From positions 1 to 39,817 of the forward strand of contig JACRPR010000065.1 of NCBI GenBank assembly GCA_016223105.1: 39,817 bases of DNA, read 5' to 3'. The position numbers and the translations under genes were made by a program. This document shows, piece by piece, positions 1 through 22,665 of the stretch. The notes beneath the pieces are model-generated. The model was not told the DNA's origin. It worked only from the letters and a program-made list of their open reading frames with translations, and made no database searches. Source of the DNA: Chloroflexota bacterium (GTDB taxonomy: Bacteria > Chloroflexota > Anaerolineae > UBA4142). The first letter of the stretch is position 1. Every line of letters begins with the position of its first letter.

Positions 1-85
1 AGCGTCGAATCCAGTAGATCAACAATTGGCGCGAATTTTTTCAGTACGCACCAACAAAAAAATCTGAAATCCAAAATGGTGTAAG

Positions 86-1774
86 ATGCCCAATCCAACT
101 CGCTTTTTTATCACGCATTCGTGGAACGACATTACGTTCGCAAAAAAATTGTGCGACGATTTGCACGCGAGCGGCTTGGACGGTTTTCTCGACGAGCGTT
201 CGATTCGCCCGGGCGAAAGCATTCCGTCGCGCATCGAGCGCGGCTTGGAAGACTGCGATGTGTACATCCCGATTCTTTCGCCCGCCGCGCTTGCATCGCC
301 CTGGTGCGATTGGGAAATTGATATCGCGATCACACTCAGCCGCGACGCGACGCGCAACGAACGCCCGCGCATAATGCCGGTGATTGCGGAAAAATGTCGC
401 GTGCCATCGCGCTTGCGCCATTTGCTGTACGTGGATTTCGGGAATTGGCGTGATGAGCAAATTTATCACCACGCGTTAAATGTGGTGCTGGTCAACGGGT
501 TCGGCGTGCGCGCCAAGCCGATGCCGCCGGTTTATGCGCCATCGCCGTACTCTGTTCCGGCGCAAACACCATCGCTTCCGAACTGGCTTGTCCCGGTTGG
601 CGTAGTCGGCGTGGGAGTTATGCTGTTGTGCATCTTGATTGCGCTTGGCGTGAATAGTTTTTTGAATAGTCCCACCCCAACGCCAACCCAGGTTAGCGCG
701 CGCGCGCCGACTGTTCCCGCGCCGAGTCCACTGCCCCAGCCGACCGCGACACCGCGCGTAACTGCCACCCCGCGCGATGGCGACACGCGCGCGTTTCTGC
801 CCGATAATGCGCCGATGATGTTTGTGTCCGCCGGCGATTTCAAAATGGGAAGCGATGACGCGGACAAGGACGCGGCAAGCGACGAGAAACCACAACACAC
901 GGTTTACCTCGACGCGTTTTGGATGGACAAGTTTGAGGTAACGAACGCGCTGTACAAAAAATGTGTGGACGCCGGGAAATGTTCACGTCCAAGCGATACA
1001 AAATCGTACACACGCAGTTCGTACTTTGGCAACGCGCAGTTTGATAATTATCCGGTGATATACGTGAACTGGGATCAAGCCAAGACGTACTGCGAATGGG
1101 CAGGCAAACGTTTGCCGACTGAAGCCGAGTGGGAAAAAGCCGCGCGCGGTACGGATGGCAGAATTTATCCCTGGGTTGGCGCGTTCGACGGAACACGATT
1201 AAATTTCTGCGACAAGAATTGTGAATTCAGTTGGAAGGACAATAATTATGATGATGGATACGCGGATACATCACCGGTGGGAAATTATTCGCGCGGCGCG
1301 GGTCCGTATGGTATAATGGATCTTGCCGGGAATGTGTGGGAATGGGTTGCGGATTGGTACGATGAAAAATATTATGCGACTTCACCGCGCAACAATCCAA
1401 CGGGGCCGAGTTCCGGATCTTCGCGCGGTCTGCGCGGCGGCTCGTGGTACAACGGGCAACAGGACACGCGCACGGCGTACCGCCTCAGGTACGGCATAAC
1501 GTACTCGGGCTACGATGCTGGCTTTCGTTGTGCGAGGGGGCATTATTTGGCATTTGCATCGGTAGACGGACGCCGTTCCGTCTTGTTGTGGCGCGTGATG
1601 AACCGGGACGGAACGGCGTCCGTCGGCTACAATGTTCTTGGATTATGGATATGGGCAAAACTTTCAAACATCTCTATCCCGAAATCACATCCTTTGGAAA
1701 TTTGTACGAGTCATTTCACCGCGCGCGGCGGAATGGCAAACGCAAACAGCCGGAGGTCGCGACGTTCGAACTGA
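86..1774 (+). CDS. TIR - transmembrane - FGE/C-type-lectin protein, DGR target (variable protein)
   Basis: This 562-residue protein is the diversified target of the retroelement that follows. Residues 5-130 form a TIR domain (FFITHSW start; S71-x-W-C-x-x-E77, where E77 fits the catalytic glutamate of NAD-cleaving TIRs). Residues 168-190 are a hydrophobic membrane segment, preceded by R142/K144 and followed by a Pro/Thr-rich linker (195-230). Residues 238-484 are an FGE-sulfatase/C-type-lectin fold (FxMGSDD, PTEAEWEKAARG, GNVWEWVADWY, RGGSW, GFRCA). The last 38 residues of that fold (447-484) are the VR. The N-in/C-out orientation would place the variable domain outside the cell; this is inferred from charge bias. 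Known FGE-type DGR targets end just after GFRCA, but this frame runs 78 more residues and overlaps the RT start by 130 nt. The start ATG has only a weak ribosome site. Confidence 0.9.
   Translation: MPNPTRFFITHSWNDITFAKKLCDDLHASGLDGFLDERSIRPGESIPSRIERGLEDCDVYIPILSPAALASPWCDWEIDIAITLSRDATRNERPRIMPVIAEKCRVPSRLRHLLYVDFGNWRDEQIYHHALNVVLVNGFGVRAKPMPPVYAPSPYSVPAQTPSLPNWLVPVGVVGVGVMLLCILIALGVNSFLNSPTPTPTQVSARAPTVPAPSPLPQPTATPRVTATPRDGDTRAFLPDNAPMMFVSAGDFKMGSDDADKDAASDEKPQHTVYLDAFWMDKFEVTNALYKKCVDAGKCSRPSDTKSYTRSSYFGNAQFDNYPVIYVNWDQAKTYCEWAGKRLPTEAEWEKAARGTDGRIYPWVGAFDGTRLNFCDKNCEFSWKDNNYDDGYADTSPVGNYSRGAGPYGIMDLAGNVWEWVADWYDEKYYATSPRNNPTGPSSGSSRGLRGGSWYNGQQDTRTAYRLRYGITYSGYDAGFRCARGHYLAFASVDGRRSVLLWRVMNRDGTASVGYNVLGLWIWAKLSNISIPKSHPLEICTSHFTARGGMANANSRRSRRSN
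1426..1536 (+). repeat. DGR variable repeat (VR)
   Basis: This 111-bp segment aligns without gaps to the TR at 3113-3223. The 15 mismatches are at 1448, 1455, 1456, 1463, 1478, 1484, 1485, 1490, 1494, 1502, 1505, 1508, 1509, 1511 and 1514. Each lies opposite a template A: seven became T, seven G and one C. The final 22 bp (1515-1536) are identical to TR and act as the likely initiation-of-mutagenic-homing site. Similarity stops abruptly at 1537. Twelve of about 36 encoded residues differ from the template, mostly template Asn turned into Tyr, Asp, Gly or Leu. Confidence 0.96.
1565..1624. other. 18-bp perfect inverted repeat just downstream of VR (candidate DGR target hairpin/cruciform)
   Basis: The arms at 1565-1582 and 1607-1624 are perfectly complementary over 18 bp with a 24-nt loop. 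The structure begins 28 bp after the VR ends and stops 20 bp before the RT start codon. Hairpins or cruciforms just 3' of the VR are known to promote retrohoming in several DGRs, which makes that the first reading. A role as attenuator between target and RT, or a stray palindromic repeat, is also possible; the stem is longer than the short stems described for phage DGRs. Confidence 0.7.
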
Positions 1775-2838
1775 ACAGCGAAGACGAATTGTTCCGTTTG
1801 CAAACGGAACTGCGCGATAAAACATATCGCCCCGGCGCGTACCGGCATTTTTACATTTACGAACGCAAACGCCGCAAAATCAGCGCGGCGCCATTTCGCG
1901 ATCGCGTCGTGCATCACGCGCTTTGCAAGGTCATCGAACCGATTTTTGAAAAGCGCTTCATTGACGATTCGTACGCGTGCCGCAAAGAAAAAGGCACGCA
2001 CCGCGCGATTGAACGCGCGCAGGAATTTGCGCGCACGCGGCGGTATCTGTTGCAGTGCGATGTGCGCCAATTTTTTCCGAGCATTGATCACGCGGTATTG
2101 CGCGGCTTGCTCGCGCGCTCCATTGCCGACGCCGATACGCTGTGGCTGATTGACCAGGTTCTCACCTCCGGCGCGGACGCGCTGACCGACGAGTACGCGC
2201 TCGAATATTTTCCCGGCGATGATCTCTTCGCGGCAAATCGTCCGCGCGGTTTGCCGATTGGAAATCTCACCAGCCAATTCTGGGCGAACGTGTACTTGAA
2301 CGAACTCGATTATTTCGTCAAACACGAATTGCGCTGTCACTGCTACGTCCGCTACGCCGATGACTTTGTTTTATTTCACGACGACAAATCCATCTTGCGC
2401 GCGTGGCGCGCGCAAATCATCGTGTTTCTCGAAATCTTGCGTTTGCGCCTGCACGAAGAACGCGCGGTTGCATCGCGCACGCACGACGGATTCGACTTTC
2501 TCGGCTTTCGCGTTCTGCCGCATTATTTACGTTTGCGTAAAGCCAACGCGCGCGCGTTCGCGCGGCGCTTGGTCGCGCTGATGGAGCAGTCCGCGCGCGG
2601 CGAACTGACGTTGGACGACATCACGCCGCGCGTCCGCAGTTGGATCGCGCACGCGGAATTTGGCAACACCTATCGTTTGCGCCAGCAGATTTTTCGGCGC
2701 GCGTTTTTCCCAGGAGGCGGAGATGCTCAACTCGCCGGTGATCGTCAAAACGTTCGATCTGATCGCGTGGCTGATGCCGCGCACGCAGAAATTTCCCAAG
2801 AGCCAACGCTTTGTGATGGCGAAACGCGTCGAGGATAG
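1645..2838 (+). CDS. DGR reverse transcriptase
   Basis: This is the error-prone reverse transcriptase that copies the TR RNA into adenine-mutagenised cDNA. It shows the catalytic motif A aspartate (CDVRQFF, D139), the polymerase box YADD (237-240), and the DGR hallmark motif LPIGNLTSQ (203-211), where group II intron RTs have QGxxxSP. There is no maturase or endonuclease domain. Two start codons are possible, ATG 1645 or ATG 1651; the frame is open further upstream through the VR, but that reads the VR in a wrong frame. The core ends near RRAFF (about residue 358), after which about 40 residues run on and overlap avd by 116 nt. That tail may be real or may reflect a lost stop. The order is target-RT-avd-TR. 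Confidence 0.95.
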   Translation: MDMGKTFKHLYPEITSFGNLYESFHRARRNGKRKQPEVATFELNSEDELFRLQTELRDKTYRPGAYRHFYIYERKRRKISAAPFRDRVVHHALCKVIEPIFEKRFIDDSYACRKEKGTHRAIERAQEFARTRRYLLQCDVRQFFPSIDHAVLRGLLARSIADADTLWLIDQVLTSGADALTDEYALEYFPGDDLFAANRPRGLPIGNLTSQFWANVYLNELDYFVKHELRCHCYVRYADDFVLFHDDKSILRAWRAQIIVFLEILRLRLHEERAVASRTHDGFDFLGFRVLPHYLRLRKANARAFARRLVALMEQSARGELTLDDITPRVRSWIAHAEFGNTYRLRQQIFRRAFFPGGGDAQLAGDRQNVRSDRVADAAHAEISQEPTLCDGETRRG

Positions 2839-3064
2839 CGCGCTCGATGTGTACGCGCATCTCATCGCGGCGAGCAAACGCAAAGGCGCGGCGCGTGTCG
2901 CGGCATTGGCGGACGCGGATGTGGAGCTGGAAAAACTGCGCGCGTTCGTCCGGCTCTGCCGTGAGTTTCAATTGTTGAACTTGAAGCAACACGAACATAT
3001 CGCGCGGCAACTCTCCGAGGTGGGTAATTTGCTTGGTGCGTGGATCAAAAAACCGGACGCGTAG
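2723..3064 (+). CDS. avd: DGR accessory variability protein, four-helix bundle
   Basis: This 113-residue, helix-rich, basic protein has the usual Avd layout: a first helix with FDLIAWLMPRTQKFPKSQRF, then amphipathic helices ending HIARQLSEVGNLLGAWIKK. Avd proteins form pentameric barrels that bind the RT and TR RNA and are needed for cDNA synthesis. ATG 2723 is chosen because AGGAGG lies five bases upstream (2712-2717). The gene starts inside the 3' end of the RT frame, so the two are probably translationally coupled. Its TAG stop is the first part of a palindromic repeat (3061-3088), and the TR follows 49 bp later. Confidence 0.92.
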   Translation: MLNSPVIVKTFDLIAWLMPRTQKFPKSQRFVMAKRVEDSALDVYAHLIAASKRKGAARVAALADADVELEKLRAFVRLCREFQLLNLKQHEHIARQLSEVGNLLGAWIKKPDA

Positions 3065-3088
3065 AGACGTTGCACGCAACGTCTCTAC
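3061..3088. repeat. REP-like palindrome at the avd stop codon
   Basis: A perfect 13-bp inverted repeat (3061-3073 and 3076-3088, beginning GTAGAGACG) overlaps the avd stop codon. From memory, this palindrome resembles a dispersed repeat of cyanobacterial and Chloroflexota genomes. It lies between avd and TR, so it would fold at the 5' side of the template RNA or limit transcription into it. Confidence 0.75.
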
Positions 3089-3112
3089 GCGTTCGCAAGG
3101 GCAACGGTCGTT

Positions 3113-3223
3113 CGGTCTGCGCGGCGGCTCGTGGAACAACGAACAACAGAACACGCGCACGGCGAACCGCAACAGGAACGACATAACGAACACGAACAAC
3201 AATGCTGGCTTTCGTTGTGCGAG
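3113..3223 (+). repeat. DGR template repeat (TR)
   Basis: This is the invariant donor for VR mutagenesis. It holds 34 adenines in 111 bp, many in AAC codons, so the matching frame would read as an Asn-rich version of the VR (SWNNEQQNTRTANRN...). AAC-rich templates maximise amino-acid diversity without creating stops, a known DGR trait. The segment is not expected to be translated; its transcript primes and templates the mutagenic cDNA. Confidence 0.96.
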
Positions 3224-3411
3224 CGATTCCCCAGATTCGCTAAAATGTCGTGTGTTCGTAGGGGAACACGCGATTCCGGCGGAGGTGTTGTTGGGGAACC
3301 CCAGACTGCTTGTCCTGGTTCAAGTCGAGTGCTTGAACCGAAAACGTCGAGACCCGGCGCGAGGTAGTAGACGCGTGTCGAATCTTCGCGTCGGGTCGTC
3401 TTTCCACCGGC
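3224..3411 (+). ncRNA. Candidate structured spacer RNA downstream of TR
   Basis: No convincing gene lies in this stretch. It contains an 8-bp hairpin (3317-3324 with 3332-3339, 7-nt loop) and further GC-rich complementary pieces. In characterised DGRs a spacer 3' of TR is part of the RNA that RT and Avd bind for priming. Position alone suggests the same role here; no family motif was recognised. Confidence 0.35.
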
Positions 3412-3440
3412 TTGGCGAGCCGCGCGGAATGTTGTATAGT
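3412..3440 (+). promoter_or_regulatory. Putative sigma70-type promoter for the antitoxin gene
   Basis: TTGGCG (3412-3417) and TATAGT (3435-3440) are separated by 17 bp. An imperfect palindrome of the form AAATG-N5-CATTT (3450-3464) lies at the expected start of transcription and could be an operator for the ribbon-helix-helix protein encoded next. Confidence 0.4.
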
Positions 3441-3502
3441 GTGGCGAGCAAATGCACAGCATTTCAGTTGATGCGGATTTATCAAAAGATAGGAGAATCA
3501 AA

Positions 3503-3787
3503 ATGGCTGAACGACGGTATCGCACCAATATCGTGTTAGAACCAAAACAACGGCGCACGCTGACTCAATTAGCGGATCGCGAGGGGCGCGCGGTTGCCGA
3601 TGTTTTGCGCCAAGTTGTTCGTTTGGGTTTGGTTCAAATGCAAAGCCAAACCCAGCGTCCTCAACGCGCGCTCGAACGGTTGGCGCGACTGCGCGCGCGG
3701 GTGTATCGCGAACACGGGTTGTATCCCGGCAATCTGCTGGCAGAAACGCGAAGCGAACGTGAACGGCAAATCGCGAATATGTTATGA
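3503..3787 (+). CDS. Ribbon-helix-helix (CopG/VapB-like) antitoxin, orphan
   Basis: This 94-residue basic protein begins ERRYRTNIVLEPKQRRTLTQLADREGRAVADVLRQVV, a typical ribbon-helix-helix DNA-binding unit, followed by an Arg-rich helix and a C-terminal toxin-contact-like tail. AGGAGA at 3491-3496 supports ATG 3503. Its TGA stop overlaps an ATG in the ATGA manner usual for antitoxin-toxin pairs, but the downstream toxin is reduced to a nine-codon stub. The gene is therefore probably a left-over antitoxin. Similar proteins can also be free regulators. Confidence 0.75.
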   Translation: MAERRYRTNIVLEPKQRRTLTQLADREGRAVADVLRQVVRLGLVQMQSQTQRPQRALERLARLRARVYREHGLYPGNLLAETRSERERQIANML

Positions 3788-3813
3788 AAATCATCGTGGC
3801 TCTCAATCTCTGA
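3784..3813 (+). pseudogene. 5' stub of a PIN/VapC-type toxin gene
   Basis: ATG 3784 overlaps the antitoxin stop and opens MKIIVA, the usual beginning of PIN-domain toxins, then hits TGA after nine codons. The sequence from about 3801 is a tandem CTCAATCTCT-type repeat that runs to the next gene. A deletion joining repeat DNA to the toxin start explains this; the identification rests on only six residues and the overlap geometry. Confidence 0.45.
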
Positions 3814-3849
3814 ATCTCTCAATCTCTAATCTCCAATCCCCAATCCCCA
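3801..3849. repeat. Short tandem-text repeat (CTCAATCTCTGAATC type)
   Basis: Degenerate units of CTCAATCTCT, CTAATCTCC and CAATCCC fill the whole gap between the toxin stub and the EamA gene. An antisense relative (GATTCAGAGATTAGAGATTGG) lies at 25759-25783, upstream of lysA. Confidence 0.7.
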
Positions 3850-4737
3850 ATGCGTCCCTATCTCATTCTCCTCCTCGGCATTCTCGCCGTCTCGTCCGCC
3901 GCGATTTTGATTTCGTTCGCGCGCGCGGAAGGAATGCCGGCGGTTACGATTGCCGCGTTGCGACTCACACTCGCGTCGGTCGCGCTCGCGCCGTTCGCGA
4001 TCACGCGCGCGCACAGCGAGTGGCGCGCGTTATCGCGGCGCGATCTCGCGCTCGCGATTTTATCCGGCATTTTTCTCGCGTTGCATTTCGCGTTTTGGAT
4101 CTCGTCGCTCGATTATACCTCGGTGATGAGTTCGGTCGTGTTCGTCAGCACGAATCCACTTTTTGTTGGACTCGCGTCTGTCCTGGTTTTGCGCGAATCG
4201 CTCACGCGCGGCACGATTGCCGGGATCGCGGTTGCGGCAATCGGCGGCGCGATCATCGGCTGGAACGATCTGCGCGGCGCGGGCGCGGAATCACTGCAAG
4301 GCGATTTGCTCGCGCTTGCCGGCGCGGTAACGGTGTCCGGCTATTTGTTGATCGGACGACGACTGCGAAAACATTTGTCGCTGATCGCGTACATCGGTTT
4401 GGTGTACTCGACCGCCGCGATCTTTTTGCTCGCGCTTGCGTTTGTGATGAACGCGAGTTTGTTCGGCTATTCGTGGCAAGCATACGCGCTGATCGCACTG
4501 CTCGCCGCGGGACCGCAGTTGATCGGACACACGTCGTACAACTGGGCGCTGAAATATCTGTCCGCGACATTTATCACGGTAACACTTCTCGCGGAACCAA
4601 TCGGCGCGACGCTTCTCGCGATCCCACTGCTCAATCAAAATCCCGATCCAATCCAGTTGCTCGGCGGCGCGTTGATCCTGGTTGGCATTTATCTCGCCGC
4701 GCGCGAAGAAAGTCAAACAGTTAACAGTGAACAGTGA
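3850..4737 (+). CDS. EamA-family (DMT superfamily) transporter
   Basis: This 295-residue inner-membrane protein has about ten hydrophobic helices and two internally similar EamA halves (first half ending near GGAIIGW, second near GGALILVGIYLAAR). The family exports small metabolites, but the substrate cannot be read from sequence. Length matches the family. ATG 3850 follows repeat DNA with no clear ribosome site. The last eight residues (SQTVNSEQ) and the TGA stop come from the CAGTTAACAGTGAACAG palindrome at 4718-4769. Confidence 0.88.
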   Translation: MRPYLILLLGILAVSSAAILISFARAEGMPAVTIAALRLTLASVALAPFAITRAHSEWRALSRRDLALAILSGIFLALHFAFWISSLDYTSVMSSVVFVSTNPLFVGLASVLVLRESLTRGTIAGIAVAAIGGAIIGWNDLRGAGAESLQGDLLALAGAVTVSGYLLIGRRLRKHLSLIAYIGLVYSTAAIFLLALAFVMNASLFGYSWQAYALIALLAAGPQLIGHTSYNWALKYLSATFITVTLLAEPIGATLLAIPLLNQNPDPIQLLGGALILVGIYLAAREESQTVNSEQ

Positions 4738-4769
4738 ACAGTTGACTGTTCACTGTTCACTGTTAACTG
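4718..4769. repeat. Perfect 25-bp palindrome of CAGTGAACAG units
   Basis: The arms at 4718-4742 and 4745-4769 are exactly complementary with a 2-nt centre. It supplies the EamA stop and could terminate transcription. A related element lies at 9854-9919. Confidence 0.9.
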
Positions 4770-4785
4770 CTCACTAATAACTGAT

Positions 4786-5427
4786 ATGCTACGCTACATT
4801 CTTTTCGATCTCGACGATACACTCTACCCGACTTCCGCCGGACTGATGGACGAGATCAGTCAACGGATGAACGAGTTTATGATCACGCGGCTCGATGTGC
4901 CCGCGCATGATGTCGCGCGCCAACGCAAAGATTACTGGGAACGGTACGGCACAACTTTGCGCGGGTTGTACATCGAACGCCACATTGATCCGCAAGCGTT
5001 TTTGAATTTTGTTCACGATGTCGCGATTACGAAATACTTGGGCGCGGACGCGCGGCTCGATCAAATGCTCGCGCAGATCGCGCAAACGAAAAGTGTGTTC
5101 ACAAACGCGCCCGGCGATTACGCGCGTCGCGTGCTGGATGCGCTCGGCGTCGCGCATCACTTTGAAAAAATTTTCGACATCAATTTTATCGAGTACCAAA
5201 GCAAGCCGAACGCGTTTGCATACGATAAAGTTTTGTCCGCTCTGCCGGTGCGCGCGAACGAGTGCGTGATGATTGACGATACGCCGCGCAATCTCGCGCC
5301 CGCGCAAAAACTGGGCATGAAAACGATTTTGCTCAATCGCGAAAATCATCGCACGCTGCCGAGTGGTGTGGATGCAATCGCGCAAACGATTTACGATGTC
5401 GCTCAAGTGGTTCAAGACCTGGACTAG
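4786..5427 (+). CDS. HAD-superfamily phosphatase (pyrimidine 5'-nucleotidase-like)
   Basis: The 213-residue cytosolic protein has the HAD motifs: DLDDTLYP with nucleophile D8 and acid/base D10, a TNA motif II, SKPNAFAYDKVL for motif III lysine, and MIDDTPRNL for motif IV. The LDDTLYP start and length match the HAD-IA variant 3 group that includes SDT1-like pyrimidine 5'-nucleotidases; other phosphomonoester substrates are possible. ATG 4786 follows the palindromic repeat and has no strong ribosome site. Its 3' end overlaps the MFS gene by 32 nt, suggesting coupled translation. Confidence 0.82.
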   Translation: MLRYILFDLDDTLYPTSAGLMDEISQRMNEFMITRLDVPAHDVARQRKDYWERYGTTLRGLYIERHIDPQAFLNFVHDVAITKYLGADARLDQMLAQIAQTKSVFTNAPGDYARRVLDALGVAHHFEKIFDINFIEYQSKPNAFAYDKVLSALPVRANECVMIDDTPRNLAPAQKLGMKTILLNRENHRTLPSGVDAIAQTIYDVAQVVQDLD

Positions 5428-7453: not shown

Positions 7454-9859
7454 GTGATGCGTGATTCGCTCCAACATTTTTTGATTTTAATTGCATACAC
7501 GGTCATCGCCGTCGCGCTGTCATTTCCACTCGCGCTGAATTTCGCGACGGCGATCCCAGGTGTCGAAGGCGACGCGCCCAGTTTTGTGTGGGCGTTGGGC
7601 TGGATGCAACGCGCGCTCGAACTCGGCGAAAATCCATTTCGCACCGATTTCGTTTTCTATCCGCTCGGCGGCGCGACGCAATTGATGTGGGCGATTTCGC
7701 TGATCGCGATCCTGGCATTGCCATTGCAAGCCGCGTTCGGCTTGATTGTCGCGCACAACGCGATGTATTTGATCGCGACGGTGTTGACCGCGTACGGAAC
7801 ATTTCTACTCGCGCGCGAAGTTCTCGCGTCGAGAATTCCAAAACCAAAATTCGCGCCCGACCGCGCCACGCTTCCGCCGTTTCAAACCTTGCTCATCGTT
7901 CAGTTCATCGCGCAACAACGCGCGCTCGCAAATCTAAAATCTAAAATCGAAAATCAAAAATTGATCTTTGCCGCGTTCGTCGCCGGACTCGTGTTCGCGT
8001 TCGCGCCGCTCCGCCTCGGCTACGGACTCGCGTTCTTAAATCTGTTCAACACGCAATTCATTCCGGTTTACGTTTTGTTTTTGATTCGCGCGACGCGCCG
8101 CGCGCATCGGCGCGATGCGTTGATTGCCGGATTATTTTTAGGATTGAACGCGTACATTGATTTTCAGATCGCGGCGTTTTTGATTTTGTTCACCGCGCTG
8201 TACGCGACGTACGTTTTGATCGCGGGCTGGCGCGAGGCGCGATCAAAGTTCGTGGGCTGGATCGTCGGTTGGTTGACCACCGGCGCGCTTGCGCTCGCGA
8301 TTGCCGCGCCGATGCTCGCGATTCTCGCAAACGATTTTGCGTTGGAGGGCGGCAATTACATTCGCGTTTTTCCGATCAAGTACTCGGCGGATCGCTCGTA
8401 CGATTTGCTTTCGTACATCGCACCGCACGCGCAGAGCGCGCTGTACGCGAACACGCCGCTAAAAGTGATCGGCGTCAACGCGGGCGCAAACGCGAACGAC
8501 ACGAGCGCGCTGTCGCCGGATCGTCAAGCGTTTATCGGCTACGCCGCTCTCGCGCTCGCGCTGTACGCGACGATCACACGTTGGCGGCGCGCGCGCTTTT
8601 GGTTTTTCGTTGCGCTCGCGTTCGCGCTGTTCAGTCTTGGTCCCTCGCTTCACGTATTCGGTCGCGATGTTGGCGTCCCACTTCCATTTCTCGCGCTCCA
8701 CGAAATTCCGATCATCAATCACATTCGGATTCCGATGCGGTACGGCGTCATCGTCGCGTTTGCAATCGCGATGCTCGTGGGGATTGCGATTTCAGATTTC
8801 AGATTTCAGATTTCAGATTGGCGGACCGCGCGCAATGTATCACGCATCACGCATTACGTTTCGCGTTTTACGTTTTTGCTCATTCCGATTTTTATTTTAC
8901 TCGAATTCGCATTTTTCCCATACCCGATCCAGTCGTTCACAATTCCAAAAATTTACGAAACGCTCGCGCGCGCGCCGGGCGATTTCACGGTTTTGGAAAT
9001 TCCGACATTCAACTGGCGCGCGGCGGCGACGTTCGAAGCGTATCAACCGATTCACGGCAAACGCATTTTGCGCGCGTACACAAATCGCATTTCGCCGGGC
9101 ATTGCCGAGTATTTCGCGTTTCGCGGCACGCCGATTGTGATGCGCTCTCTGCGCGTGCTTGAAGGCGCGGAAAAAGCCCCGCTCGATCCGGCGGACATCG
9201 CGGAAGACAAAAGTGTGCGCGATGAGGTTCTGCGCTTTTTCGATTTGCGCTACGCAATGGTGCATCGTGATTTTCTCAAAGCAGATGAGGCGCGCGCGAT
9301 TGATCTCTACTTGCGCGAGGTTTTGGGCGCACAGATTGTGGACGACGATGGCGCGATGATTTCCTACGAATTTCCCTTATTTCCCTCCCATCCCCCTGAA
9401 TTGCGGATTGATCTGCGCGAAAATATCGGGCAGATGTACGCCGGACGCGGTTGGCAATTTGAATATCCAAAAGCAAACTGGGAAGGGCAGTTTGATTTTG
9501 TGTGGACAAAGGGCGCGCAAGCGGAAATTTATCTCGTCGCGGATGAAATGTCATTGCGCGGAGCGAACGCGACGAAGCAATCTTCGAGCAACAATGTGGA
9601 GATTGCTTTGCACGCGGAGCGTTCGACTGCGCTCAGGTCGCTCGCAATGACCATTCACGCGTTCGCGGAAACGCCAACGCGCGTCCTGGTTTATCTCAAC
9701 GACGCGCGCGTCGGTGAAATCGCACTGACAAACGCGTGGCAAGATCATCGCATCGAATTGCCCGCGCGCGTACTCAAGTCGGGAATGAATCGCGTGCGTT
9801 TGGATTTCGGCGCGGAGTTGCACGAGACAGTGGGCGTTACGGCAATCAGTATTCAGTGA
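7454..9859 (+). CDS. Large polytopic membrane protein, GT-C glycosyltransferase-like
   Basis: The roughly 800-residue protein has ten or more hydrophobic helices up to about residue 490, then a soluble C-terminal half. The loop after helix 1 (PGVEGDAPSFVWALGW) and the NPFRTDFVFYPLGG region resemble GT-C type membrane glycosyltransferases, but no catalytic motif is certain. The start is GTG 7454 or ATG 7457, inside an ACGTGATGCGTGAT repeat. At least three dispersed repeats are read in frame: 7931-7963, 8788-8819 (encoding SDFRFQISDF) and 9550-9651 (encoding SLRGANATKQSS). The stop codon comes from the CAGTGAACAG repeat. The gene is intact over all of these, so it either tolerates them or is decaying. 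Confidence 0.65.
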   Translation: MMRDSLQHFLILIAYTVIAVALSFPLALNFATAIPGVEGDAPSFVWALGWMQRALELGENPFRTDFVFYPLGGATQLMWAISLIAILALPLQAAFGLIVAHNAMYLIATVLTAYGTFLLAREVLASRIPKPKFAPDRATLPPFQTLLIVQFIAQQRALANLKSKIENQKLIFAAFVAGLVFAFAPLRLGYGLAFLNLFNTQFIPVYVLFLIRATRRAHRRDALIAGLFLGLNAYIDFQIAAFLILFTALYATYVLIAGWREARSKFVGWIVGWLTTGALALAIAAPMLAILANDFALEGGNYIRVFPIKYSADRSYDLLSYIAPHAQSALYANTPLKVIGVNAGANANDTSALSPDRQAFIGYAALALALYATITRWRRARFWFFVALAFALFSLGPSLHVFGRDVGVPLPFLALHEIPIINHIRIPMRYGVIVAFAIAMLVGIAISDFRFQISDWRTARNVSRITHYVSRFTFLLIPIFILLEFAFFPYPIQSFTIPKIYETLARAPGDFTVLEIPTFNWRAAATFEAYQPIHGKRILRAYTNRISPGIAEYFAFRGTPIVMRSLRVLEGAEKAPLDPADIAEDKSVRDEVLRFFDLRYAMVHRDFLKADEARAIDLYLREVLGAQIVDDDGAMISYEFPLFPSHPPELRIDLRENIGQMYAGRGWQFEYPKANWEGQFDFVWTKGAQAEIYLVADEMSLRGANATKQSSSNNVEIALHAERSTALRSLAMTIHAFAETPTRVLVYLNDARVGEIALTNAWQDHRIELPARVLKSGMNRVRLDFGAELHETVGVTAISIQ
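7931..7963. repeat. AATCTAAAATC-type tandem text inside a coding region
   Basis: Units of AATCTAAAATC/AATCGAAAATC interrupt the membrane-protein gene in frame, encoding NLKSKIENQKL between two hydrophobic stretches. The same text occurs between genes at about 6582-6610. Confidence 0.7.
8788..8819. repeat. ATTTCAG x4 tandem repeat inside a coding region
   Basis: Four tandem ATTTCAG units encode ISDFRFQISDF in frame. It is followed to about 8877 by an ATCACGCATCACGCATTACG text repeat, the reverse complement of the one at the start of the same gene (7441-7465). Confidence 0.85.
9550..9651. repeat. GTCATTGCGAG-family palindromic element, intragenic copy
   Basis: It starts GTCATTGCG and ends CGCAATGAC with internal GAAGCAATC / GATTGCTTTG complementarity. 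It has 102 bp, divisible by three, and is read through in the membrane-protein gene. Other copies are at 10561-10666, 22553-22653 and 35013-35086, with a half copy at 39678. Confidence 0.9.
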
Positions 9860-9919
9860 ACAGTAAACGGTGAACAGTGAACAGTGAACTGTTGACTGTT
9901 GACTGTTCACTGCTCACTG
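9854..9919. repeat. CAGTGAACAG-type imperfect palindrome
   Basis: Tandem CAGTGAACAG units face GTTGACTGTT/GTTCACTGCT units. The element includes the stop codon of the upstream gene and fills most of the gap to the thioesterase. Confidence 0.85.
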
Positions 9920-9935
9920 ACCCCTAGGGGTAACA

Positions 9936-10543: not shown

Positions 10544-10772
10544 GTAACTGCTCAGCCCATGTCATTGCGAGCCGCGAAGCGTTTGCGAAGCAATCCCCAA
10601 TCTGGTCGTTCCGGCATTGTCGCACGGAGATTGCTTCGTCGGCAAAAAACGCCTCCTCGCAATGACAGGGTGAGTAGTAACGAATCTTTGCTAATTTTCG
10701 ATTTATATTCGCGTTATTCGCGGATCAAAATGATTGTTTCGGCTTTCGAATGACGGTGGGCTGAGCAGTTAC
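10544..10772. repeat. Nested palindromic element enclosing a GTCATTGCGAG copy
   Basis: A perfect 16-bp inverted repeat, GTAACTGCTCAGCCCA (10544-10559) with its complement at 10757-10772, bounds 229 bp. Inside lie a 106-bp GTCATTGCGAG element (10561-10666) and the right arm of the neighbouring 23-bp repeat. The outer arms recur around the elements at 22536-22785. Confidence 0.85.
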
Positions 10773-11253: not shown

Positions 11254-12741
11254 ATGAACAAATTTACGCCTTCGCAAGTCGAAACGCTCCTCAAGTTGGT
11301 GCGCGCGGAATCTATCGAAGCGCTCGCCAATCACATCCACACCCTGCCCGCGCTCAACCACACGTTCACGCTTTTGGCATCGCCGTCCACGCGCGCGGAC
11401 GCGCCGCGCGAACGCGGCTTGTTCGTCAAACAGTTGATCGAACAAGCCATTCATTCGCTCCAGTCCGCCGAACGCGATAGCGATCCGCGCGTTGCGCGCG
11501 GACACACCTTGCTCAGCGCGTTTTACCTCCAACACAAAACCCGCGCCGAAACGCTCGCGCTGATGCAAGTCGCCGGCGGATCGTTTGACCGCGCCAAAGT
11601 GTACGCCATCGCGCGCCTCACCGACGCGCTCAATCAACTCGCCGCGCGCGCGCGCCCGGCAGTGGCAAGTGTTTCCAGCGCGAGCGCGGACGCGCACAAA
11701 TGCCGCCACTTGCCGTACCGACCTTATCGCATTTTGTGGGGACGCGAAACCGAAGCCGATGAGATTTTAACCTGGTTGACCCAAGCCAATGCCCACGCGG
11801 TCGTGTGCATCAGTGGCATGGGCGGCAATGGCAAAACCGCGCTCGCGCGGCACATCGCCGAAATGTGGTGCGCTCTGCCGACGCTGGCGGACGCGCTGTG
11901 GGTCAGCGCGAAACGCGAAGCGCTCATCGGCGCGCAAATTCATTCCGCGCACACGGAACGATTAACCTTTCCCAATTTTGTAGACCAATTGATTTTTCAA
12001 ACCAGGCGCGCGGAGGTCGCGCATAAACCGCTCGCCGAAAAAATTCTCGCGTTGAGCAATTTATTTCGCGAGCAAACGTATTTGATCGTGTTGGATAATT
12101 TAGACGAGTGTGAAAATGAAGTTGCTTTCACACAACAAGTGTTGAACATCCTGGGCAACAGTCGCCTGCTGATCACGAGCCGGCATCAACACACCGACGT
12201 GTTGCCGGTCGTGCGCCCCGCGCATCTCGGCGGACTGCGCGCAGACGATAGTATTCAACTATTGCGCGCGGAATCCGAGTTTCGCAATTTGGCGGAAATT
12301 ACGCGCGCCACGCCGGAGACTCTGCGCGAAATTCACGCGTACACCGGCGGCGCGCCGTTGGCACTGCATCTCGTCATTGGGCAGGCGCACATTTGGCCCC
12401 TGCCGACCGTGCTTACGCATTTGCGGCAGGCGCGCGAACTCGACACGGAATTTTACACTTTCTTGTTCAAGCAGGATTGGCTCTCGTTATCCGACGCGGC
12501 GCAACGCATTTTGATTTACATCGGGCGAATGATTCGCACGTCGGTTACGCACGCGCAATTGCGCTACACGCGCATCGTCAAAAGCGATGTGAACGCCGCG
12601 CTCGAAATGTTGATTCAATTTTCACTGCTCGAGACGAACGGGCTGTTGCTCGAAACGGAAAAACGGTACAGTCTGCATCCGCTCGTGCGGCATTTTGTCG
12701 TCAGTGAATTGCCCAAGTTATGGACAGCGCAAACGATCTGA
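11254..12741 (+). CDS. NB-ARC/STAND ATPase
   Basis: This 495-residue protein has a helical N-terminal region (1-130), then a STAND ATPase core. The core has an NB-ARC entry motif GRETEADEI near 163, Walker A GMGGNGKT (188-195), Walker B LIVLDNLDE (277-285), a LLITSRH sensor and a GGAPLAL motif near 370. A winged-helix-like segment (about 395-490) follows. STAND proteins are signal-gated switches used in regulation, cell death and anti-phage immunity. The sensor repeats expected at the C-terminus are instead encoded by the overlapping TPR gene at 12720. The N-terminal domain type is unrecognised; RAETLALMQVAGGSFDRAKVYAIARL could be a small helical adaptor. No ribosome site is obvious. Confidence 0.88.
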   Translation: MNKFTPSQVETLLKLVRAESIEALANHIHTLPALNHTFTLLASPSTRADAPRERGLFVKQLIEQAIHSLQSAERDSDPRVARGHTLLSAFYLQHKTRAETLALMQVAGGSFDRAKVYAIARLTDALNQLAARARPAVASVSSASADAHKCRHLPYRPYRILWGRETEADEILTWLTQANAHAVVCISGMGGNGKTALARHIAEMWCALPTLADALWVSAKREALIGAQIHSAHTERLTFPNFVDQLIFQTRRAEVAHKPLAEKILALSNLFREQTYLIVLDNLDECENEVAFTQQVLNILGNSRLLITSRHQHTDVLPVVRPAHLGGLRADDSIQLLRAESEFRNLAEITRATPETLREIHAYTGGAPLALHLVIGQAHIWPLPTVLTHLRQARELDTEFYTFLFKQDWLSLSDAAQRILIYIGRMIRTSVTHAQLRYTRIVKSDVNAALEMLIQFSLLETNGLLLETEKRYSLHPLVRHFVVSELPKLWTAQTI

Positions 12742-13682
12742 TCGAATTTTATTCCACCGGGTGTGTGCAATCTGCCGCGCAAAGTTGGTGGGAGTTGTAT
12801 CAAGCGGACGCGCAAATTTTGCGTCAGCCGGATGAACGCGCCAACATTTTATTTTGCATCGAAGAGTGTTCCGCGCAGGAAAACTGGGACTGGGTCGCGC
12901 AGTTTTGGAATCTTACCGAAGATTTGTACAACCTGGGTTATTGGAACGAGTACGAGCAAGTGGATCGCGCGTGTCTGGCGGCGGCGCAAGCATTGGGCAA
13001 CGCAGATATGCAAGCCGCGATTCACGGCGAACTTGGTTGGCTCGCGATTCAGCGCGGCGAATTTCAACGCGCGCGCGCGTGGATCGAATCGTCCCAGCGT
13101 ATTTATGCGCGACTCGGCAACGTGCGTGGGCAGTTGATCGCGCGGCGGTACATCGCGACCATTGCCATGGCGGGACAGGAGTGGTCATCCGCGCGCACGC
13201 AGTTGGAAGAATTACTCGATTCACTCCGCGCGCTGATCGAAACCGGCGATCCTGAATGGCGCGCGTTCGGTGTGCGCCAGAGCGATATCATTCATGACAG
13301 TTTGGGCATCGTTCTGCAACAATTGAATGATTACGCGCGCGCGGAACATGAACTGCAATTGGGATTAGCCGGCGCGCGCGCGCGTGGACCGTTGGCGGTG
13401 GCGACTTCACTCCTCAATCTGGGCAAACTGCGTCTGCGGCAGGCGCGCAATGATGAAGCAGAAAAACTTTTCGCCGAGTGTTGGGCGACTTGTCGCGCGC
13501 ATGAATTTCGCGCGATTGGCGCGGAAGCGCAATTTTATTTGGCGCAGTTGGCGCGCGCGCGCGGCGAAAAACACACCGCGCTCGAACTCGCGCGCGACTG
13601 TTGGCGCGTGTACCAAGCGCTCGGAATGACGACGAGCGTTCAAAAAACCGCGGAGTTTATCGCGACACTCCTCGACAGTTGA
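12720..13682 (+). CDS. TPR-repeat protein, partner or detached sensor half of the NB-ARC ATPase
   Basis: This 320-residue protein consists of tetratricopeptide-type helix pairs (for example AIHGELGWLAIQRGEFQRARAWIES, DSLGIVLQQLNDYARAEHELQLGLAGA, SLLNLGKLRLRQARNDEAEKLF). It begins 22 nt inside the ATPase gene, in another frame. In many STAND proteins the TPR array follows the ATPase in one chain, so this looks like a split two-gene form with coupled translation. A frameshift splitting one gene is the alternative. The reading frame is intact throughout. Confidence 0.82.
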   Translation: MDSANDLIEFYSTGCVQSAAQSWWELYQADAQILRQPDERANILFCIEECSAQENWDWVAQFWNLTEDLYNLGYWNEYEQVDRACLAAAQALGNADMQAAIHGELGWLAIQRGEFQRARAWIESSQRIYARLGNVRGQLIARRYIATIAMAGQEWSSARTQLEELLDSLRALIETGDPEWRAFGVRQSDIIHDSLGIVLQQLNDYARAEHELQLGLAGARARGPLAVATSLLNLGKLRLRQARNDEAEKLFAECWATCRAHEFRAIGAEAQFYLAQLARARGEKHTALELARDCWRVYQALGMTTSVQKTAEFIATLLDS

Positions 13683-15283: not shown

Positions 15284-15308
15284 TTATAACTCGGCGGCAT
15301 TATAACAC

Positions 15309-22535: not shown

Positions 22536-22665
22536 GTAACTACTCAGCCCATGTCATTGCGAGCGGTTTTTGCGAAGCAATCCCCGACCTGGTCGATCCG
22601 GATTTGCAACGCGGGGATTGCTTCGTCGGCAAAAACCGCCTCCTCGCAATGACACCTGAGTAGTT
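22536..22665. repeat. GTCATTGCGAG-family element with 10-bp terminal inverted repeats
   Basis: AACTACTCAG (22538-22547) and CTGAGTAGTT (22656-22665) are perfect terminal inverted repeats around a GTCATTGCG...CGCAATGAC core (22553-22653). The copy at 10561 has the same left flank. No coding capacity. Confidence 0.85.

Follow-up and report, generated by a model that had tools for sequence, protein, structure and literature searches.

Does the start of this contig carry a diversity-generating retroelement (DGR) that has been used, and if so, what kind of protein does it vary? The window analyzed is the entire contig C23 (39,817 nt) of a Chloroflexota metagenome-assembled genome, and it starts 85 nt upstream of the ATG of the target gene. 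The original prediction held that a target gene, a DGR-type reverse transcriptase (RT), Avd, a variable repeat (VR), and a template repeat (TR) are all present, and domain matches together with alignment confirmed each of them. On the forward strand lie the target ORF (86–1774, 562 codons), which encodes a TIR domain, a predicted transmembrane (TM) helix, a Pro/Thr stalk, and an FGE-type C-type lectin containing the VR; the RT ORF (1645–2838, 397 codons), matching RVT_1; and the bAvd-type Avd (2723–3064, 113 aa) with AGGAGG directly upstream. The order VR-RT-Avd-TR is common to 42 of the 56 relatives possessing a TR/VR pair. The element is a cellular DGR, and the locus is very probably a chromosomal DGR belonging to those that vary the sensors of conflict systems, here acting on the lectin of a putative membrane TIR receptor.

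The TR/VR pair carries the case for use. The VR (1426–1536) and the TR (3113–3223), both on the forward strand and located by alignment and an A-pair scan, align ungapped over 111 nt with 15 mismatches, all 15 at template adenines (34 A in 111 nt), exactly as originally counted. The accompanying chance estimate of 0.306 to the 15th power, about 2 × 10−8, conveys the same message as the exact hypergeometric P of 1.4 × 10−9. Changes from TR to VR comprise seven A>T, seven A>G, and one A>C; a 116-nt alignment takes in two further mismatches, both at the 5′ edge and opposite template T (P = 6 × 10−8). None of the 77 non-A sites has changed, which by the rule of three places divergence since the last homing at about <4%. 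Most template adenines occupy the first or second position of a codon (17, 14, and 3 in positions 1, 2, and 3), and 12 of the 21 codons containing one are altered in the VR. When T, C, or G took the place of A as the privileged base, the scan found no pair within the window's first 8 kb. Comparison of VR and TR in related loci, which the prediction had proposed as a check, gave a concordant picture: the A-privileged scan of 80 relatives' loci found 56 with a pair and nearly A-only divergence, and control scans of the same loci found two with T (L107 and L114) and one with C/G (L074). The T pairs of L107 and L114 are probably real TRs, because Avd and the RNA match described below sit on the other strand. 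Because pairs with more than a few non-A mismatches do not pass the scan, totals such as 20 non-A among 901 mismatches are biased and do not represent a rate. The DGR is genuine, with past adenine-directed homing and recent use; the prediction had called it active, and the A-only divergence upholds the past homing, but present activity does not follow from it.

The RT contains both motifs originally named, LPIGNLTSQ at 2251–2277 and YADD at 2353–2364, corresponding to the DGR-type xGxxxSQ and YxDD; the SQ motif marks DGR RTs. It matched phrog_1423 "Reverse transcriptase" (E 1 × 10−123) and the solved RT structure 8ub7 (E 2 × 10−48), which we take to be the BPP-1 enzyme, and RTs of the 80 related loci are 51 to 61% identical to it. 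Across 81 RTs, including the window and the truncated paralogue L002 from the same genome, the window RT deviates at 4 of the 112 columns that ≥90% of RTs conserve, compared with 14 for L002, and at 12 of the 147 columns conserved in 80% (median 8). Avd matched the NCBIfam model DivGenRetAVD (NF033474) at 105.5 bits, with a cutoff of 80, and weakly matched Bbp7 (4dwl; E 0.026). L002 (contig C120) was rejected as a second working DGR and is considered decayed: its RT is truncated near residue 332 and followed by an apparent relic of a TR 3′ end, and a scan of the locus found no Avd and no TR/VR pair, yet the RNA described below scores 40.6 bits there. The RT of L003 was also rejected as a DGR RT, with 27% identity and an adjacent ORF that by eye looks like Cas1.

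The stop codons of the target and RT genes are both displaced. The target ORF continues 238 nt beyond the VR and into the RT gene, leaving 78 codons after the lectin, and the RT ORF overlaps Avd by 116 nt. In the comparison with relatives it extends 115 nt beyond the Avd start, as against ≤34 nt in the 66 whose Avd lies downstream on the same strand; untruncated RTs of relatives end at query position ∼351 to 392. A palindrome at 1565–1624 (forward strand; perfect arms of 18 bp around a loop of 24 nt), partially matched at many other places in the genome, occupies the site where many relatives carry a small-loop hairpin. Ranked by stem length with loops ≤30 nt, it is the first of 67 VR flanks; it was rejected as the usual DGR hairpin, its halves recurring widely across the genome. 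A second dispersed palindrome on the same strand (3061–3088; GTAGAGACGTTGC-AC-GCAACGTCTCTAC) contains the Avd stop codon and is found at 12 places in the genome with ≤2 mismatches, this copy counted, and dispersed palindromes adjoin both VR and TR. A small-loop hairpin 3′ of the VR was not found in the window, where the score of 5.5 was equalled or exceeded by 58% of 1,100 random stretches. Among 54 relatives, 32 reach at least the 95% control level (25 lie above it) and 22 lack such a hairpin. The hairpin is not defining for a DGR, because a partly available source reports that homing persists at a residual level without it.

Comparing relatives also revealed a covarying RNA of ∼150 nt 3′ of the TR, matched in 74 of 80 loci and in 32 of 38 loci held out from the model; no Rfam match was found where searched. 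In the window, an unfiltered search and folding point to a probable divergent copy at 3238–3399, with three predicted stems. Starting 14 nt after the TR on the sense strand, it is the top unfiltered match in the whole window on both strands. Its score of 13.0 bits (E 0.0028 for the searched 751 nt; E 0.15 for the whole window) falls below that of every relative with a match (28 to 108 bits), and default filtered scans of the window and of the genome missed it. The window sequence is probably at most a divergent copy of the relatives' RNA, and the idea that the RNA had been lost was dropped on the strength of the unfiltered search and these stems. The fit of a P2 stem (four pairs, 55 of 76 sequences) is no evidence, because a best-of search is biased.

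A serious possibility is that this DGR functioned until a short time ago but is by now dead or failing, the VR being frozen in its last state after inserted palindromes and lost stops broke expression or homing, although on balance we lean against it. RT and Avd show few deviations at the best-conserved columns, the non-A sites are unchanged, the RNA still has three predicted stems, and a small-loop hairpin reaching the 95% control level is likewise missing from 22 of 54 relatives; pulling the other way are the displaced stops, the dispersed palindromes flanking both sides, the missing hairpin, the weakest RNA, and the decayed L002 in the same genome, together with the erosion of DGRs by MITE-like repeats described in the available part of PMC10907252. 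We favor a genuine, recently used DGR that may now be weakened, as suggested by the two displaced stops, the palindromes inserted beside VR and TR, and the diverged RNA. The description of the element as complete holds for the parts list, and has to be qualified for the stops, for the palindrome in place of a small-loop hairpin, and for the lowest-scoring RNA.

The target is most likely a receptor anchored in the membrane by its TM helix, with the TIR in the cytosol and the variable lectin carried outside on the stalk. The TIR domain (104–457, residues 7 to 124) matched TIR_2 with E 1 × 10−25, and Glu77 (codon 314–316), part of WCDWE, lines up with the glutamate in WPQKEL (3h16) and WTEYEL (7uxr) of bacterial TIRs, presumably the catalytic residue of TIR NADases. 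A single TM helix is predicted from hydropathy at 587–655 (about residues 168 to 190; peak 2.84 at residue 171), followed by the Pro/Thr-rich stalk up to residue ∼238 and by the FGE-sulfatase type C-type lectin domain (809–1537, residues 242 to 484). Whole-target mean pLDDT is 68.6, with linker (residues 140 to 234) and tail below 50, and so the lectin alone was used from the predicted structure; it is mostly above 90, dipping to ∼50 near residue 385. Foldseek with the lectin retrieved FGEs and, at 2.8 × 10−13, Treponema denticola variable protein 1 (2y3c), which we take to be TvpA. It is improbable that the TM call is wrong and the lectin intracellular, with no receptor and the TIR in a cytosolic sensor like other TIR/NACHT conflict proteins: such a reading draws on the prevalence of NACHT proteins (34 of 50 scanned targets) and on L066 and L093, which combine TIR and lectin without a stretch above the hydropathy threshold, but the window and L104, L106, and L122, the 3 of 49 relatives' targets sharing the TIR-hydrophobic stretch-stalk-lectin layout, each have one strong hydrophobic stretch and a Pro/Ser/Thr-rich stalk.

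The genome contains 13 FGE-type matches, 8 of them with an RGG...GFR motif, the window target (L048) included. Remote targets in the genome were rejected, since none of the seven other motif-bearing matches is A-only relative to the TR; the five without the motif gave short local matches to the TR only. Chance or ordinary gene conversion within an FGE gene family, without retroelement action, has a negligible probability and is refuted as far as the scans go, because the pair is A-only, RT and Avd adjoin it, and L042, the paralogue closest to the TR after the target itself, differs from it at 38 of 110 nt, 17 of these at non-A sites.

On the preferred reading of a DGR acting on a membrane TIR receptor, RT-Avd would bind the TR transcript through the structured RNA just 3′ of the TR and make a cDNA from it with errors at adenines; replacement of the VR by this cDNA would alter as many as 21 codons on the lectin face. 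With the variable lectin outermost on a membrane TIR protein, diversification would therefore change the ligand, whether phage, kin, or neighbor surface, that triggers the TIR. The retroelement type was already known; the conserved RNA beside templates emerged from comparing relatives, and it may be a means of template recognition. In four stretches, TR, RNA, and VR occur together without an RT in view. A bolder proposal, which we regard as doubtful and offer tentatively, is that the outer lectin of a membrane TIR protein is continually rewritten by the cell as a hypermutating Toll-type receptor and that, in this DGR lineage, template identity resides in a portable three-stem RNA 3′ of the TR, recognized by RT-Avd in trans, so that RT-less TR-RNA-VR cassettes could spread, served by a distant RT. 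If the preferred reading is right, a membrane TIR receptor is being diversified by bacteria as they grow, which would amount to a simple counterpart of an evolving innate receptor. With the RNA, trans-acting templates become open to direct testing, and DGR templates far from RT genes, which searches of RT neighborhoods miss, can be looked for.

Animal Toll-like receptors and bacterial TIR proteins have TIR homology and a receptor-like order of parts in common with the target; unlike the former, it has a lectin rather than LRRs and its TIR is N-terminal, and the likeness is one of working, with no shared whole-protein ancestry claimed. Treponema denticola variable protein 1 has the same FGE-type variable lectin fold, the matched chain aligning with the lectin only. 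The Bordetella phage BPP-1 DGR (L176), as described in the available parts of PMC3240598 and PMC12875486, has the same RT, Avd, TR, and VR at the target 3′ end, a structured spacer 3′ of the TR, and an inverted repeat 3′ of the VR; its order is VR-Avd-TR-RT rather than VR-RT-Avd-TR, and its type of small-loop hairpin was not found in the window. Homology of the relatives' RNA to the BPP-1 spacer was rejected, as a search of 8 kb of BPP-1 with RNA model R1 turned up nothing convincing (best unfiltered score 12.0, presumably chance). Closer in kind are the clade 5 RT DGRs of multicellular bacteria, which according to the available part of PMC10907252 diversify CLec sensors in conflict systems; the window DGR is likened to them by kind of target alone. 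They likewise show A-directed TR/VR divergence and CLec targets, the effectors being TIR, NACHT, or peptidase domains; their hosts include filamentous chloroflexi, and MITE-like erosion and action in trans are described for them. The targets described there include a CHAT + TIR protein and N-terminal TIR effectors, but not a TIR-TM-stalk-CLec receptor. The word TIR is absent from the main text of the global survey PMC8144416, which in its available part reports an N-terminal TM domain or signal peptide for most cellular target clusters and takes their ligands to be extracellular, in keeping with a membrane-anchored target here.

The variable repeat (VR; 1426-1536) and template repeat (TR; 3113-3223) of the diversity-generating retroelement (DGR) align without gaps over 111 nt, and all 15 mismatches fall at template adenines (34 A; hypergeometric P 1.4e-9), bearing out the original prediction of strictly adenine-directed divergence. 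A repeat search extended the pair to start at 1421/3108 with 85% identity, adding two template-T mismatches at the 5′ edge, and no comparable pair was found in the first 8 kb of the window with T, C, or G as the privileged base. The 15 VR changes alter 12 of the 21 codons that include a template A, and most fall at the first or second codon position. The predicted DGR-type RT (1645-2838) and Avd (2723-3064) were likewise confirmed, as RVT_1 and bAvd by Pfam and by name in PHROGs (RT, E 1e-123; Avd, "Avd protein of DGR"). NCBIfam also named Avd (105.5 bits vs. a cut-off of 80), and none of its models exceeded cut-off for the RT or the target. By sequence, the RT matched solved structure 8ub7 ("Reverse transcriptase"; E 2e-48), which we take to be the enzyme of Bordetella phage BPP-1, and Avd matched Bbp7 (4dwl; E 0.026). 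At the 112 columns conserved in 90%, the RT deviates at 4 (median 2), and at the 147 conserved in 80% it deviates at 12 (median 8), among the higher counts; Avd has 3 at 30 columns (median 2) and 6 at 39 (median 5). Judged by conserved columns, both proteins look fairly sound.

The target (86-1774) carries a TIR_2 domain at residues 7-124 (Pfam E 1e-25) and an FGE-sulfatase domain at residues 242-484 (E 3e-58). Its structure is modelled well over the lectin, moderately well over the TIR, and poorly over the remainder; in a Foldseek search with this model, the top matches were formylglycine-generating enzymes, and 2y3c, variable protein 1 of Treponema denticola, was matched at 2.8e-13. For comparison we used the best 80 of 182 confirmed loci from one RT search of genome contigs, mostly titled as Chloroflexota and above all Anaerolineae. 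In 56 of the 80 loci, a TR and a VR align without gaps and diverge only, or almost only, at A, and two more (L107 and L114) have the template on the opposite strand; the control privileging C or G gave one locus of 80. No pair was found in the remaining 22, in many of which the contig ends near the RT. With the window included and the best pair taken per locus, the order VR-RT-Avd-TR holds in 43 of 57. Locus L003 has a reverse transcriptase ORF adjoining a Cas1-like ORF, recognized by eye, and is probably a CRISPR RT. Among 50 targets scanned (the window's plus 49 selected for being in frame), all contain the FGE domain, 34 NACHT, and 6 TIR_2 (the window, L066, L093, L104, L106, and L122). The window, L104, L106, and L122 have in common a TIR, a single hydrophobic stretch, a stalk rich in Pro/Ser/Thr, and a lectin; no hydrophobic stretch above threshold was found in L066 or L093.

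The window spans all of contig C23. Its metagenome-assembled genome (5.5 Mb, 250 contigs, 93% complete) is the only one of its genus, and 8 of 14 genomes of the family, itself included, encode such an RT at E ≤1e-60. Among 12 further window ORFs scanned, those matched are of chromosomal types (EamA, HAD, MFS, M55 peptidase, glycosidases, a PAS-GGDEF protein, and others). An ORF for an NB-ARC ATPase and, after it, one for a TPR protein (11254-13682) make up a STAND-like pair at a distance of 8 kb from the DGR. At 4701-4790 and 9844-9933 there are AACAGTGAACAGTG repeats in tandem and inverted arrangement, and other repeat families lie at 10582-10667 and 22569-22654 and at 15307, 16381, and 35807, ACCCGAAGGGTTT palindromes among them.

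The window departs from its relatives in where its frames end. In 51 of 55 relatives open over the VR (best pair each; several out of frame, not all checked), the frame ends 0-60 nt past the VR, the exceptions being L085 (108 nt), L083 (159 nt, out of frame), L096 (continuing into the RT), and L097 (masked bases). The window's target frame runs 238 nt past the VR, crossing a palindrome and entering the RT gene, and its RT stop lies 115 nt past the Avd start, vs. ≤34 nt in the 66 relatives whose Avd match lies downstream on the same strand. Partial matches to the palindrome at 1565-1624 are numerous across the genome, and another palindrome, at 3061-3088, occurs at 12 places. Small-loop hairpins (3-4 nt loop) 3′ of the VR reached the 95% level of a control of 1,100 random stretches in 32 of 54 relatives (25 above), and none did so in the window. 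When loops of ≤30 nt were permitted, 29 of the 67 VR flanks were better than shuffles at 0.05; because the window's palindrome has the longest stem of the 67, it might take the place of a hairpin. GNA triloops occur in 15 of the 54 best small-loop hairpins (2 of the 15 on 4-bp stems); the published phage DGR consensus is a GRNA tetraloop (PMC3240598, in its available text). Two types of small-loop hairpin seem to occur 30-95 nt past the VR, G-rich (L055, L057, and L133) and C-GNA-G (L076, L092, L106, and L109).

Aligning the sequence downstream of the TR revealed a common element. This RNA of ~150 nt, conserved and covarying, lies 3′ of the TR in this DGR lineage (L055-L134; e.g., L057:3348-3514 and L122:6570-6707). 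RNAalifold gave two helices totalling 13 pairs, with both-sided changes in 13 of 13. In a sequence-only alignment of 42 loci excluding the window, 150 cells changed on both sides vs. 47 shuffled and 33-50 slid; an alignment fitted to the model gave 305 vs. 82, a count that leans toward the model because of that fitting. The RNA model, R1, was built without the window and at E ≤0.1 matched 74 of the 80 loci (75 matches), comprising necessarily the 42 training loci and 32 of 38 others. At that cut-off nothing was found in L061, L069, L070, L075, L121, or L130; scores were low (28-31 bits) in L059, L071, L120, and L123, and matches partial in L059 and L101. RNA-bearing loci named outside Chloroflexota include L077 (Thiothrix) and L088 (Halieaceae). 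Rfam at gathering score, applied to the window plus 11 of the 80 loci, returned one RNase P and three tRNAs and no match at the element; at a loose threshold over window positions 1-5000, it had no match within 3100-3450.

The default R1 search did not detect the element in the window, alone or alongside the 80 loci, and genome-wide it returned a copy on contig C120 (40.6 bits) and four weak matches, missing the window's candidate. Unfiltered, over 39.8 kb and both strands, the top match was 3238-3399 on the plus strand (13.0 bits; E 0.15, or 0.0028 when 751 nt were given instead of the whole window), and folding this candidate predicted three stems (z -4.2). R1 scores 46-94 in 14 family loci, of which L140, L142, and L152 apparently coincide with L055, L062, and L117. 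The C120 copy belongs to a decayed DGR (L002:1160-2556) retaining hairpin and RNA with a truncated RT; no Avd or TR/VR pair was found there.

Across 301 genomes of the phylum, R1 (E ≤0.001, stricter filters) gave 23 matches in 19 genomes; 27 genomes encode the RT at E ≤1e-60. An RT or Avd lies within ~1.5 kb in 15 of the 22 matches taken as loci, and the 23rd is the C120 copy, adjoining its truncated RT. Neither RT nor Avd was found in the stretches of 5.7-14 kb around the other seven (L206-L212). In four, an A-directed TR/VR pair adjoins the RNA (P 2e-8 to 2e-13), forming TR-RNA-VR cassettes at L207:7005-7547, L208:6934-7546, L209:6564-7175, and L211:3501-5647; L211 is a 5.7-kb contig on which the RNA is terminal, so its RT may sit just outside. 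A TR-like stretch is present in L210. No TR/VR pair was recognized in the L206 and L212 stretches, where R1 matched at L206:7035-7199 (86 bits) and L212:6706-6861 (35 bits), and at the thresholds applied neither RT nor Avd was matched in the L206 genome. Three of the four cassette genomes encode RT and Avd elsewhere (G077, G085, and G261; the G085 RT match is partial), and the fourth, G282, has an Avd match below cut-off and nothing else. The cassettes are possibly served in trans, and DGR parts acting in trans are described for Thiohalocapsa (PMC10907252).

The window's element belongs to a known kind of DGR. CLec targets bearing TIR (PMC10907252) and membrane-anchored cellular targets (PMC8144416) are already published. 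A receptor with the TIR-TM-stalk-CLec layout predicted for the window target was not found in literature searches made for it, in the available portions of those two papers, or by word search of the accessible text of PMC10053308. Searches of mainly open-access papers turned up no comparative account of RNAs lying 3′ of the TR; PMC12875486 cites structural studies of the BPP-1 spacer RNA. R1 gave no convincing match in BPP-1, so we liken the RNA to that spacer in role, not by homology: it would most likely act as does the BPP-1 spacer, which, as described in the accessible part of PMC12875486, recruits RT-Avd and primes cDNA.
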